From Oscillospiraceae bacterium (lineage in GTDB: Bacteria > Bacillota > Clostridia > Oscillospirales > Ruminococcaceae), in NCBI GenBank assembly GCA_031284525.1, contig JAISZR010000003.1, positions 1-64,000 on the forward strand: a DNA stretch of 64,000 nucleotides, written 5' to 3'. The notes below the pieces were generated by a model. That model saw only the letters and a list, made by a program, of their open reading frames with translations, was not told the origin of the DNA and made no database searches. A program made the position numbers and the translations under genes. Shown here piece by piece: positions 4,986-23,265 of the stretch (positions are counted from its first letter, which is position 1; each line of letters opens with the position of its first letter).

Positions 4986-6880
4986 TCACATGTTTCCATT
5001 TGGGTTGTACTTATCTTCATCCGCTGCCAATCCACAATTTTCCCAAAGTTCCTCCAAGCGATACACGTTCTTGCCCTTCACCGCAGTGGTGAATTTGGTC
5101 AACGCAGGAGCTGTTTTCCCCTTTTTTCTAGCGAGATTAAGTAAACCCTCGCTTTTTCGCTGGACAAAACTGGTGGGTTCTGCTCGGTGCCACAGTCGAC
5201 GAAGTCGCCTGCCGGATCACCTGTTGGCCTTACGTACAACACGCCATTGTTTTGAATCGCTCCAGCGAAACAGTCATCCTGCGAGATCAGCGAACGGAAG
5301 CGACAATCGAGCAAGAAAGCGGTGCCACGGTTCAAAACCGCTGGCAGAGCCTTAGGCGCTACGTTGTTTGCTAGAGTCAGTCCTTGCATCCGCACACGAC
5401 CGCCTTCTGAAGTGGAGAGGAAGCACCCCGTTTTTGCTAGGCCCTCTAAAAACGGCGGGCGATCCGGCAGAAGAACCGCCGTCCAAGCCGCCGGGCCCTT
5501 CTAGCACCACTTGGGCTCCGCCATCAACAAAGAAAATGGTCGGTATTTGTTTTCCTTCGTGATACGGCAGCCTGTGGATTTTGTGGCCGTTCATTGCACC
5601 ACAACCTCGGTGCCGTTGAAGACGTAATTTGGCGCTGATTCGTAGAGGTCCGTTGTTCGTGCGACACGTTCTACCTGTGCGACACGTTGGGACGCGGTTA
5701 AAAGCGGCACCACTGCAGCCTAAGCAGGCTGTGGGAGAACTGGTAACCTGAGCGGTCGAATGAAGGGGTAACGCCCTGAAAGGCCACATTAATACTCCGG
5801 CGTGCGCATCCCGAGCAGTAAGGGAGACGTGCGAAGCCCGGTGAAGTCGGCAGAGAGGTACCGTAAGCCTAGCAATAGGAACGAAAGTTCGCCTAGTCCG
5901 CGGACGTACTCTATATGCCGGATGTCCATAAAATGCTCAAGGTGAGAATGTTTGAAACATAACTGACGAACCTGCGAATGTACGGGTCTAGAGCACAGCG
6001 GCGCAGAAATGCGTCGACGGGAATGCAGAGACGAGCATAGCCCGATGTGATGTGGCGGCAACGGATTTATAGGTAAAGTGCAACCATGCATCGTTATAGG
6101 CGGTGGAATCACACAGGCCCAGAGCAGGCACCTAAAGGCCGATGAACGGATAGGAGTAACAGAACGTGGAAAACCAGCCACGGGGAGGACGCTACAGTCC
6201 TAAGAAGCGGTCCCGGGCATAATACATAAGCCGGGTTAAGGCTGGAGAAAAGCTAAGGCATGAGCAATGAAGTCTCTGTAATGGGGATGGAGCAAAGGCC
6301 TCTAGTCAGACTGAAAATAGCAGAAAACTCGACCACAAATGGAGTTGAGGCGGCGTCAAAGAGAGATAACATCAGAAAGACGTTACGCCATGCATGAGGC
6401 AAAATACGGACGAAACGCTGGGATAATGCCGGACTGGAAACGACCAGCAGCTGGGGCACTAAAGCTGATACGTCCGTCTACCATACAGCACAACCGCGAG
6501 GCACAAGCTGGAGAGGGAGAGAGCTGCTAGAACTGTAAAAGTGACCACAGGAAAGTCTGATGGAGCGCCGTGTGCGGTGAAAGTCTCATGCACGGTGTGG
6601 GTCGGGGGAAAAGCCGGAGACGATATCAAAGGATTACCTATCGACATAGCTCGATTACCACATACATGGTCGGCTTGCTGTTATGTGTTTGCACCGCTGC
6701 CTTTCTCCATTGCTCTTCTATTACTTTCGACAGCTGGTCACTAGCACCCAAAGTGATCACTTCTGCTGCCTGAACTGCTGGCGTCCAGCTCAGCGCACAA
6801 AACGCGCCAGCCAACACTTTTGCCAGCACTTTCCTGCACCTGTTCTTTCGCTGTTTTCTTCCCATTTCAAAAATCCCCAT
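4986..6880 (-). pseudogene. Third beta-helix paralogue, frameshifted and interrupted by a group II intron
   Basis: N-terminal piece 6638-6880 (MGRKQRKNRCRKVLAKVLAGAFCALSWTPAVQAAEVITLGASDQLSKVIEEQ...MYVVIEL). Continuation below 5659 is spread over frames (NNGPLRISA / NYVFNGTEVVVQ / NGHKIHRLPYHEGKQIPTIFFVDGGAQVVLEGPGGL / RMQGLTLANNV...AGAIQNNGVLYV). At least three frameshifts relative to the intact paralogue. Confidence 0.7.
5659..6647 (+). mobile_element. ORF-less group II intron inserted antisense in the beta-helix pseudogene
   Basis: 5' GTGCGAC; domain V-like GAGCGCCGTGTGCGGTGAAAGTCTCATGCACGGTGTG (about 6562-6599); domain VI-like GCCGGAGACGATATCAAAGGATTACCTATCGACAT ending at 6647. Removing 5659-6647 joins ...VIEL to NNGPL... 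in frame. No reverse-transcriptase ORF inside. Confidence 0.75.
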
Positions 6881-7585: not shown

Positions 7586-7684
7586 AGCGCCGGACTTCTG
7601 GATTTTGATCTAGGGGTTCTTTCGCTTTGTGATGCCCAGCCGTGTTTGATTTGTGGCAAATTAGTGTTGGGGAGAGGGATGTTT

Positions 7685-8677
7685 ATGTCAAGGAAAACGG
7701 CGAAAATAGCATGTATTTTTTTGATTTTGATGTTTGGGGCAGTTGGTGGTTTTGGAGCGGCATCTGAAGCAAAGCCGACGGTCGATTTTGCAGATTCGAA
7801 TTTGAAATGTGCGATAAACAAGATGCTTCGAAGGGGAGATGAGGTTCCTATCACCTTGGAAGAACTTGGGGGTTTAAAGACACTTTATGCTTGCGGATTT
7901 GGGATTAGGGATTTGGGTGGCCTTGAATATGCGACGAATCTCGAGCGACTGGAACTAGCCAACAATGAGGTTGTGAGTATTTTGCCGCTTAGTGGGTTAA
8001 TCAACTTGAAAACGTTGATTTTGGAGAATAACAAAATTGAAGATGCAAGTTGCCTGAGTTCATTAACGGGTTTGACAAAGCTTGATCTTTCGGATAACAA
8101 CATCGAAAACATAGATTTTATGGCGAACTTGCGGCATATTGGTTGGTTTGGATGTGCCAACAACAAGGTGGCAGATATTTCGGGCTTAAAAGGTCTCAAT
8201 GAGTTAAATATTTTGGATATTAGCAGCAACAAAATACACTCGATTGAGCCTTTGCGCGGGTGCACCTCACTTGATTGGTTGGATGTGAGTTGGAATTTTG
8301 TTTCGGACATTTCTCCACTTAGAGATTCAACGGGGATATATGAACTGTGGGTAGTGGGGAACCAGGTGGTTGATATCTCCGTTTTAGAACATATGCCGTA
8401 TCTTGTGGACCTTAATTTAAACGAAAACAAAATTCAGAAAATTGATGTGCTTGGGCGTCTCCTGCTCCTGCGGTCACTAGGCCTAGAAAAAAACGCGGTG
8501 AGCGATATTTCGCCGCTTGTGAACCTTAAACAATTGGAATTGTTGGATATAGCATATAATCCGCTTTCAGACTATTCTGTCTTGAAGAAATTACCCCGAC
8601 TGGAAGAGGTATGGGTTGGGGAGGATGCCAGCTCGAAGTTGAGTAATGTGGATAACACGATTGTGGAATGCGTTTGA
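7685..8677 (+). CDS. Exported leucine-rich-repeat (internalin-type) protein
   Basis: Signal-peptide-like N-terminus (MSRKTAKIACIFLILMFGAVGGFGAASEA) followed by about 22-residue repeats (LxxLxxLxLxxNxIxxIxxL), e.g. LTKLDLSDNNIENIDFMANLRHIGWFGCANNKVADISGLKGL. Confidence 0.85.
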   Translation: MSRKTAKIACIFLILMFGAVGGFGAASEAKPTVDFADSNLKCAINKMLRRGDEVPITLEELGGLKTLYACGFGIRDLGGLEYATNLERLELANNEVVSILPLSGLINLKTLILENNKIEDASCLSSLTGLTKLDLSDNNIENIDFMANLRHIGWFGCANNKVADISGLKGLNELNILDISSNKIHSIEPLRGCTSLDWLDVSWNFVSDISPLRDSTGIYELWVVGNQVVDISVLEHMPYLVDLNLNENKIQKIDVLGRLLLLRSLGLEKNAVSDISPLVNLKQLELLDIAYNPLSDYSVLKKLPRLEEVWVGEDASSKLSNVDNTIVECV

Positions 8678-20869: not shown

Positions 20870-20915
20870 AAAAAGTGGCGACGAGACGCCACCGAGAAGG
20901 TGGTATCTTGTCGCC
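20870..20915 (-). terminator. Rho-independent terminator 3' of the capsid gene
   Basis: Minus strand: GGCGACAAGA..CCACC-TTCTC-GGTGG..TCTCGTCGCC followed by ACTTTTTC. Confidence 0.7.
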
Positions 20916-20954: not shown

Positions 20955-21956
20955 TTATTTCGCTTTGTAGTCTAGGATTTTAACAGCTGATTTGCAGATT
21001 CTTGCAAAACCATAGGTTGAAGTGATTGCGGAACGCTCCAACTGCTTATCTATCAACTTATCATGTTCAACTGTTAGGTTGCCGCTGGTAACCATTTCCA
21101 AGGCAAATTTGTTATCTAGGGCGATAATCGTATTTTTTGGCACAAAGGCTGATTTAATTAGCTTTGCACCGAGCAAAGTTGTTATCTCACCGGTTGATTC
21201 AAATTTAAAACCACTTTTCGAATCCAAAATTTCTTTAAGTCCGAGTAATTGCTTCATCATTTCAGGTGAGATTAAAATCGTGTTCATTTTATATTCTTCA
21301 AAACTATTCCACAGGTCGATCAAATGTTCAAATGCGGGGACCGCTTCAACCGTTTTGCTTTCCGTCTTTGTTGTCCCATCGCCATTTACTAAAATGTCAA
21401 TTGCGCTTTTCAGTTGTTGCTTGGCAATCTGGGCGCCGATCTGCTTCAGCATAATTGTGAATAGTTCGATTTTTTGGTTTTTAACTGATTCATAGCTTGC
21501 AACCATCATTCGACCTGTTTTATTTAACTTAATGAGGTTTTCTTTCAGCTTGATGTTAACGCTTGGTATTTCCGTTCCTTCGTCGATAACTTTAAGTGGC
21601 TCGGCATCTTCGTCGCAATAAATTGTTCGGTAATCAACACCGCTGATCTGTGTTTTTATTGCTACAATGTCGTCCAACATTTTGACACTAGCCATTCCGG
21701 CCCCAACGGCTCTGTACACATATTCCGGGAATAGTGTTGCAGTTTGCGCTGTCCTGAAGAACTTTTCAATGCAGTCAGCGTTTGCGTCTCCTACTTTTAT
21801 GTCAAAGCGTTTGAGTTGCCGTTGATAAGCATCCATCTTCGAAAATTCGTCACTGTAATTACCTGAAGAGTCCAGCTCTTCCAAAATTTCAGAAAAACTC
21901 TTTTCCGCAACTTTATACATATTCTTGTCCAATACGACATTCTTATAACAATCCAT
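20955..21956 (-). CDS. HK97-fold-like phage major capsid protein
   Basis: 333 aa: EYVYRAVGAGMASVKMLDDIVAIKTQISG...SAIDILVNGDG...TILISPEMMKQLLGLKEIL...FVPKNTIIALDNKFALEMV...TSTYGFARICKSAVKILDYK; overall layout of HK97-type capsid proteins, recognised by eye. Confidence 0.65.
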   Translation of the reverse strand: MDCYKNVVLDKNMYKVAEKSFSEILEELDSSGNYSDEFSKMDAYQRQLKRFDIKVGDANADCIEKFFRTAQTATLFPEYVYRAVGAGMASVKMLDDIVAIKTQISGVDYRTIYCDEDAEPLKVIDEGTEIPSVNIKLKENLIKLNKTGRMMVASYESVKNQKIELFTIMLKQIGAQIAKQQLKSAIDILVNGDGTTKTESKTVEAVPAFEHLIDLWNSFEEYKMNTILISPEMMKQLLGLKEILDSKSGFKFESTGEITTLLGAKLIKSAFVPKNTIIALDNKFALEMVTSGNLTVEHDKLIDKQLERSAITSTYGFARICKSAVKILDYKAK

Positions 21957-21997
21957 AAAATCTCTCCTTACCTTATGGTCAATTAAGCTGTTTGCTC

Positions 21998-22999
21998 TTA
22001 AATATAAAAGCTCTTGTGATTGCTTGGCCTATTACTCTCATCTTTTCGCGCAGTTTGGATATATATTCCGCTTGCCAGGCTTCTCTCATTAGCTTTTTTG
22101 AATTCTTGCAACTCCAAAACTGTCATCTTTGAAACAATGCTTTTAATTGTTGCCAAGCTCAAATTTGGCAACGATAAAATATAAGAGCCTTCAACATTTT
22201 TGATCAATTCTTCTTTGAAAGCATCAGCCAATTCACGAACTTCTTCCAGTTCTTCAAGAGCTGAATATATGCTGTCCAAGCATTGCTTAGAAAGGTATGC
22301 ACCATTTCCATCGAAACTTTTGAATCTCTCTTGAAATTCAACCACATCACTCCCCAGTGTCGTTTCTTCTATTTTTCGGTTGCCTTTAACCACACCTGCT
22401 CTTTTTTGGGCCGGAACTGCTACAAACGACCATTCATAAGCATCCGTCGGATTTTCTAAAATCCCGTAGCAAAGAACTTTGTTTCCATTTTTCACATATT
22501 CCTTGCCCTTGACGTGATTGCATTTTGACTTCTTTATGTTTGCCCCACAGATTGCACACACACAACTTTCAACGTTGCAACCCACACTGACCTCTTTTTT
22601 TATCCCGCCATCAATCTCCAAAATCAGGTCCTTGTTCTTCTCACTTTTAATCATATATGCTTTTGCCTTTAGCATATAATAGTCTTCTCCGGTGTGTGTT
22701 TTCTTCTCATTGCCCCTAACAACTTCGGTAAAGAAGATTCGTGCCATCTGATTAGTTCCTTTGGGATCGTGGTCAAAAATTCCGGTCTTACCCAAAAACA
22801 ATTTTTGCAATTTATTTAGTGCACTTACGCTGAAACATTCGAAATCTCGATCTAGATCATTGTCGCACAGCACGAGATTAAAAATGTAAACCTCATCTTC
22901 CTGCAAAGCGCGCCGGGTATATTTGTTAATCAGCCTAAGATCATCTGAACCTTCTTCAGAACTTTCTTTAGCATCTTTAACAACAAATCCTTCTTTCAC
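21998..22999 (-). CDS. Prohead-protease-like (S78-type) protein with a Cys-rich insertion (alternative ATG at 23116)
   Basis: NLVLCDNDLDRDFECFSVSALNKLQKLFLGKTGIFDHDPKG; GIKKEVSVGCNV; AYEWSFVAVPAQKRAGVVKG (candidate His/Ser/Glu active-site blocks); insertion CVCAICGANIKKSKCNH. GTG at 22999 is preceded by AGGAGG. Confidence 0.6.
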   Translation of the reverse strand: MKEGFVVKDAKESSEEGSDDLRLINKYTRRALQEDEVYIFNLVLCDNDLDRDFECFSVSALNKLQKLFLGKTGIFDHDPKGTNQMARIFFTEVVRGNEKKTHTGEDYYMLKAKAYMIKSEKNKDLILEIDGGIKKEVSVGCNVESCVCAICGANIKKSKCNHVKGKEYVKNGNKVLCYGILENPTDAYEWSFVAVPAQKRAGVVKGNRKIEETTLGSDVVEFQERFKSFDGNGAYLSKQCLDSIYSALEELEEVRELADAFKEELIKNVEGSYILSLPNLSLATIKSIVSKMTVLELQEFKKANERSLASGIYIQTARKDESNRPSNHKSFYI

Positions 23000-23142
23000 A
23001 AGACTTTCCTCCTTCCTGCTTTGTTGCAAATTCCCGCCACAACCTTTCAAATGTTGCATCAATTTCTGCAACCTTGTGGCAAAGCAAGAAGTACCTGCTA
23101 GATCAGTGGCGCCCATAAAACCCCCTAAACCCTACTTCGATC

Positions 23143-23265
23143 TTTACGCATTCTTGAAGTTCTTTTTTGAATGCGAAAGAAAAGTTCCAAAAGAAGCAAA
23201 CCAGTGAAGGAAAACGGAATTTCCCAACTGGACTCTTTTGGAACGCTTTTCTCGGGATCTAAAGT
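23143..23265. repeat. Structured intergenic element A
   Basis: CGCATTC 23147/GAATGCG 23169; GTTCCAAAAGA 23184/TCTTTTGGAAC 23234; CCAGT 23201/ACTGG 23227. Confidence 0.55.

Follow-up and report, generated by a model that had tools for sequence, protein, structure and literature searches.

A prohead protease-capsid gene pair as the probable head unit of a dispersed gene transfer agent in a reduced Oscillospirales genome

Introduction

Gene transfer agents (GTAs) are regarded as expensive to maintain and readily lost, and phage genes are among those that a strongly reduced symbiont genome would be expected to discard. The main structural genes of RcGTA stay in one large cluster. PBSX-type defective Bacillus prophages have the order TerS-TerL-portal-protease-capsid-sheath-tube-baseplate, and PBSX is known to enclose random host DNA without transferring it productively. 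The protease and capsid of HK97 suffice for a mature shell.

Among described systems, FpGTA of Faecalibacterium comes closest to the genes analysed here in its host and its gene content, as compared by description and gene order. Its heads of ~40 nm hold ~9 kb of random host DNA; one operon encodes a TerS without an obvious DNA-binding domain, TerL, portal, scaffold and capsid, a second encodes baseplate, fibre, holin and endolysin, and every Faecalibacterium genome examined carries the system (Borodovich et al. 2026, PMC12946183). That a GTA can be spread over separate loci is already known from RcGTA, which has five in R. capsulatus (Kogay et al. 2022, PMC9662315).

We analysed a protease-capsid gene pair in a 64,000-nucleotide stretch of DNA (the window) from a 772 kb Oscillospirales genome, G000. 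The first-pass annotation had described the pair as isolated. In our reading, the pair probably provides the head unit of a complete GTA that derives from a phage, was inherited vertically and has been split into at least five units.

Results

Protease and capsid genes in the window

Both minus-strand open reading frames (ORFs) are intact and lie where they were first annotated (Table 1). The call of an HK97-like capsid held up. The capsid ORF matches Pfam Phage_capsid_4 (2.1e-13) and the PHROG major head protein (4.5e-84), and its AF2 model (pLDDT 81.6) has the HK97 fold, for which a check by structure prediction had been proposed. Structural matches of the model begin at 4.5e-12 (phage NF5 capsid) and also include HK97, encapsulins and the RcGTA capsid 6tb9.

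Table 1. Features of the window and dispersed units of the candidate GTA in G000 (window positions unless a contig is given)
Feature	Location	Strand	Remarks
HK97-fold major capsid gene (candidate GTA)	20955..21956	-	333 aa; Pfam, PHROG, AF2 and structural matches
Prohead protease/scaffold gene	21998..22999	-	Likely start GTG 22999; longest ORF from 23116 (372 aa)
Shine-Dalgarno-like AGGAAGGAGG of protease	23008..23017	-	Sequence
Terminator-like hairpin and T-run 3' of capsid gene	20877..20894	-	
GTA box, palindrome GTTGC-N10-GCAAC	23053..23072	.	Shared upstream element of dispersed units
ComEC-like competence protein, 727 aa	61605..63788	+	Possible DNA-uptake partner, outside the particle
TerS-TerL unit	C1:308637-310206	-	
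Portal unit	C7:137796-138926	+	
Protease-capsid unit	C7:20955-22999	-	In the window
Connector/baseplate module	C6:3946-8052	+	
Small membrane protein and Amidase_2 endolysin	C1:161415		Found via GTA box

A PDB sequence search gave no match. For the protease, nothing in the PDB matched by fold either, and a library of viral models was therefore used, in which the top Foldseek match was 'Prohead serine protease' (1.5e-17). The head maturation protease family PHROG_18299 was reached by 5 of 18 protease homologues (best 2.5e-5). In the protease alignment His116 (GIFDH) and Ser177 (EVSVG) are invariant, and the C-terminal part is helical and scaffold-like. Pfam peptidase S78 gave no match for the ORF, so that its exact peptidase family is not fixed; of the first-pass call of an S78-like protease, the prohead protease part holds up. 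Six further residues (C180, C187, C190, C199, H201 and C216, numbered on the 372-aa ORF) are invariant across the homologues and lie between the likely catalytic serine and the DAYEWSFVAVPAQ motif, forming a probable zinc site.

The palindrome upstream of the unit falls inside the N terminus of the longest protease ORF. For this reason, and because of the AGGAAGGAGG motif, we moved the start, which is probably GTG 22999 and not ATG 23116. The 'strong terminator' ascribed to the pair corresponds to a terminator-like hairpin, but hairpins of this kind are no commoner here than in shuffled sequence.

The pair is flanked by degV and by an ABC transporter (FtsX and ABC_tran domains), as annotated, and other genes of the family's phage cluster are absent from the 64-kb window, again as annotated. 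The interval from the ABC permease gene to the protease unit also holds a long imperfect inverted repeat, GTTCCAAAAGA...TCTTTTGGAAC (window ~23179-23253), distinct from the GTA box. Elsewhere in the window, RNA domains of group II introns (D1-D4-5 and domain V families) lie within ~900 bp at 5735-6647 (+), each scoring above its Rfam gathering threshold.

An intact cluster in larger relatives

In capsid searches, 131 of 299 family genomes and 78 of 397 order genomes had a homologue, almost always in single copy; in the family, double matches mostly proved to be fragments that align to separate parts of the query. Most of the larger family genomes carry one cluster of 10-13 kb, with host genes directly on both sides, in the order TerS-TerL-portal-protease-[~115 aa]-capsid-connectors-(sheath-tube)-LysM-like-baseplate hub-gp25-J-tail fibre. 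This intact ancestral cluster was seen in ~20 relatives, with no lysogeny module beside it, and its gene order is kept in other families of the order. An active prophage would have contiguous integration, replication and packaging genes; this description does not fit the scattered genes of G000, nor the intact clusters of relatives, which are flanked directly by host genes.

In some genera degV-like and trmL-like genes flank the intact clusters. We did not use degV linkage as evidence of synteny because degV lies on the other side of the clusters and perhaps represents different paralogues. Phosphate genes, judged from their sequences, follow the cluster in two genera: pstS- and pstC-like genes with phoU in G003/G257, and phoU-phoB-phoR-like genes in G163/G230.

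The same capsid is encoded by at least 369 IMG/VR stretches and by several fecal 'Bacteriophage sp.' records. The IMG/VR contigs examined have a median length near 10 kb and show the GTA gene order, and MT835508.1 looks like a chromosome with the cluster inside. Many such virus records may be GTA clusters listed as viruses. The order-wide, nearly always single-copy distribution of the capsid points to GTA clusters behind many of the short 'proviruses' that viral databases list for gut Oscillospirales.

Dispersed units in reduced genomes

In each of three genomes of the window's genus the protease-capsid pair stands alone at its locus, in a different place each time. Because nothing else remained there, TerL, portal and baseplate hub profiles were run on the small genomes (n=6, two genera, 0.7-0.9 Mb). 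In all six, TerL is an open frame at a distance from the capsid; all six also have a baseplate hub, and five have a portal match. The profile search found no portal in G162, a less complete MAG. In G176, likewise less complete, the portal ORF is interrupted (two pieces of 60 and 326 aa, L077:9142-10288); that of its sister G088 is intact. The pair is hence not isolated in the sense first proposed, and the description of a capsid and protease without packaging genes does not extend beyond the window, since the genome holds intact genes for TerS, TerL, portal, baseplate and lysis at other loci.

In G000 the units at other loci are intact and single-copy. The sequences show that the candidate GTA comprises TerS-TerL, portal, protease-capsid, connector/baseplate and membrane protein-amidase units, all intact and single-copy, with the structural ones belonging to one ancestral cluster. 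Intermediates of the break-up are visible, since two arrangements are only partly split: in G068 TerS-TerL still adjoins the tail module, with portal and protease-capsid elsewhere, and in G229 TerS-TerL and portal lie 2 kb apart in opposite directions. Scattering by a transposon was considered and rejected, as the 455-aa ORFs near several units are mutually unrelated. A reverse-transcriptase-like ORF (YMDD) lies ~1 kb after protease-capsid in both genomes of the sister genus (G088 L024:11396-12448).

That the genomes compared are all MAGs is the one point favouring an origin of the pieces in mis-assembly or a contaminating prophage. Against this, the units lie inside contigs of 225 and 316 kb in G000 and 389 kb in G068, with host genes flanking, the same split recurs in 6 MAGs of two genera, and the gene trees match rpoB. 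We give an artefact of assembly or binning a negligible chance.

The packaging genes also bear on whether capsid and protease were kept alone as a protein shell, an encapsulin-like nanocompartment as the first-pass annotation had suggested. Only these two genes remain in the window, the HK97 pair is enough for a mature shell, and encapsulins are among the fold matches of the capsid. An encapsulin, however, is a shell alone with cargo genes and without portal or terminase; here portal and terminase are kept, TerL, TerS, portal, baseplate and lysis genes are intact elsewhere behind the same upstream palindrome, and no shared cargo-like neighbour is linked to the pair in the three genomes of the genus. 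The loci of TerL, portal and baseplate found in the profile searches rule strongly against a shell of this kind, which we regard as very improbable.

In TerL the Walker A (GAIRSGKT) and Walker B motifs of the ATPase and the aspartates of the nuclease are intact. In both reduced genera TerS is missing its entire N-terminal DNA-binding region, which most other family members keep, and no remnant of this domain was found upstream of TerS in these genera. The sheath is absent from the tail modules of the reduced genomes. Sheath and decoration genes seem to have been lost there, and the particle may therefore be reduced. A partial contractile injection system in G000 (C1 ~259.8-264.1 kb; L225:3493-7777), with a Phage_base_V spike, GPW_gp25 and a 1020-aa baseplate-wedge-like protein, is separate from the GTA tail module.

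These features weigh on a PBSX- or tailocin-like particle. Such a particle would come from a domesticated defective phage, would package host DNA or form a head-tail structure for killing relatives, and would deliver no genes. The larger genomes do carry contractile-type genes (sheath, baseplate J, wedge), and PBSX itself is known to enclose random host DNA without transferring it productively. The tail modules of the reduced genomes, by contrast, have no sheath, and constraint on head, terminase and portal is close to that on rpoB. DNA packaging kept so strictly is not required for killing, and loss of the TerS DNA-binding domain is as described for GTAs. We consider a particle of this type unlikely.

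A shared palindrome and a lysis pair

Aligned upstream regions of the G000 units share a 20-bp palindrome, the GTA box, 42-73 nt 5' of the first start codon. G068 (97% complete, 700 kb) has exactly four box sites, each in front of one of its four GTA units. The seven sites of G000 comprise four at known units, one at a new unit and two inside unrelated ORFs. A reversed control pattern occurs 0-1 times per genome in the two reduced genera (g1 and g88). Among the family's intact clusters the exact box stands before TerS in 8/20 (0.0 expected from shuffles), and in 12/20 with at most one mismatch (0.18 expected); in other families of the order only one of the scannable clusters has the exact box. 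The simplest history would take a single control site before one operon to one site before every fragment.

The amidase gene at the new unit was found because a box site in G000 pointed there. It encodes an Amidase_2 endolysin that matches PHROG lysis families (best 1.3e-44). No family match was found for the small membrane protein beside it, so that 'holin' is a guess; G162 has the same pair with its own box, and the two genes are a probable lysis pair.

A T-run follows the box hairpin at many sites and is missing at several (G000 protease, G000 TerS and G088 portal). Because of the sites without a T-run, we prefer, with reserve, to read the box as a DNA operator and not as an RNA terminator.

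Selection and inheritance

The capsid, protease, TerL, portal and hub trees all show a correlation with the rpoB tree (Mantel r 0.38-0.57, p<=0.006), and the two reduced genera are sisters in every gene tree. Between G088 and G176, dN/dS is 0.044 for capsid, 0.059 for protease, 0.063 for TerL and 0.047 for portal, with 0.023 for rpoB; dS is 0.32-0.65 for the cluster genes versus 0.48 for rpoB. Between G000 and G229, dN/dS is 0.057 for TerL and 0.036 for portal, at a dS of about 1.0, like rpoB. Capsid identity within the window's genus is 70-74%, that of rpoB 72-76%. Taken together, these values speak strongly against a recent transfer, and also against neutral decay. These comparisons indicate that the GTA units are vertically inherited, co-diversify with the host and are under purifying selection. 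The relaxed selection (dN/dS near 1) named beforehand as a sign of decay was not seen, and the first-pass terms 'domesticated' and 'GTA-like' are borne out by intact frames, vertical inheritance and strong purifying selection.

The same values bear on the possibility of a prophage or satellite relic in decay. The break-up of a phage-derived cluster and the absence of some genes (sheath, D6) would fit this, and relatives do carry the full cluster of which decaying leftovers had been envisaged here. The genes were nevertheless kept: dN/dS is 0.04-0.06, frames are open and full-length, divergence is like that of rpoB, and the units are retained in independent reduced genomes, each scattered unit keeping its palindrome. 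On the dN/dS values we reject prophage decay, and a relic, satellite or otherwise, is barely credible.

Discussion

The dispersed GTA agrees with three of six published GTA features (Kogay et al. 2022, PMC9662315). GTAs encode caudoviricete-derived proteins able to form a virion-like particle; the genes recognized here by sequence and fold are those for capsid, protease, portal, TerS, TerL and baseplate hub, together with gp25- and J-like ones. GTAs are fully endogenized, often at multiple loci (at least five in G000), and mostly vertically inherited; here trees and synonymous distances follow rpoB. Further features are particle DNA that is mostly random host DNA, delivery to other cells and a genome of their own that cannot be fully packaged (PMC9662315). 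The scattered G000 loci cannot be packaged together, a TerS without its DNA-binding domain agrees with packaging of random host DNA, and the presence of ComEC (in the window) and DprA, both intact, is suggestive of delivery.

From these genes we infer particle production and DNA transfer. In some cells, a single regulator acting at the box would induce every unit at once. The capsid would assemble on its own N-terminal region and the scaffold part of the protease, and the protease would mature it. TerL and the shortened TerS would fill the heads with random host DNA, a short sheathless tail would be attached, and the amidase would lyse the cell. Sibling cells would then import the DNA, possibly with the help of ComEC and DprA, which are conserved here and widespread among bacteria.

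The host bacterium is probably protist-dwelling. An ATP/ADP translocase marks the Acutalibacteraceae 'small genome clade' of protist endosymbionts, in a paper whose main text contains neither the word phage nor the word capsid (PMC10579323). Reduced members carry the translocase gene; it was not found in G000 itself, whose assignment to Acutalibacteraceae we infer. A 343-aa leucine-rich-repeat protein in the window (7646-8677, +; LRR_4 4e-35) fits a eukaryote-associated lifestyle.

Even a genome as strongly reduced as this one thus appears to have retained a GTA. That it is kept with near-rpoB constraint though its genes are no longer together is strong evidence of host benefit. We tentatively suggest that in protist-dwelling reduced Clostridia the GTA may have become fully cellular, shattered into box-controlled units like a host regulon, and kept because recombination among the symbionts of one host cell, with uptake by ComEC and DprA, offsets asexual gene decay. 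Its retention here makes the question of what GTAs are for testable in a minimal genome, and the box offers a handle for finding the regulator and missing parts, the lysis pair having already been reached that way.

FpGTA resembles this system in its host, of a related gut family (Ruminococcaceae), in gene order and in a TerS without DNA-binding domain. It differs in having two operons, whereas here the structural cluster itself is split into at least five box-tagged units in a 0.77-Mb genome. With RcGTA and the Rhodogtaviriformidae the shared features are domesticated caudoviricete genes, host co-diversification and several loci (PMC9662315). The RcGTA capsid 6tb9 is also among the fold matches of the window capsid. 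RcGTA, however, keeps one large cluster and belongs to a different phage lineage and bacterial phylum. The larger genomes share the PBSX-type gene order from TerS to baseplate; unlike PBSX, the reduced genomes have no sheath and scattered genes, and no lysogeny module was seen beside the clusters. Encapsulins share the HK97 fold of the capsid, but here protease, portal, terminase and baseplate genes are kept, and there is no cargo linkage. Our search found no papers on GTAs in Acutalibacteraceae, and, as far as found, what is new relative to these systems is the breakdown of a structural cluster into separate units, each tagged with a box, within a genome smaller than one megabase.
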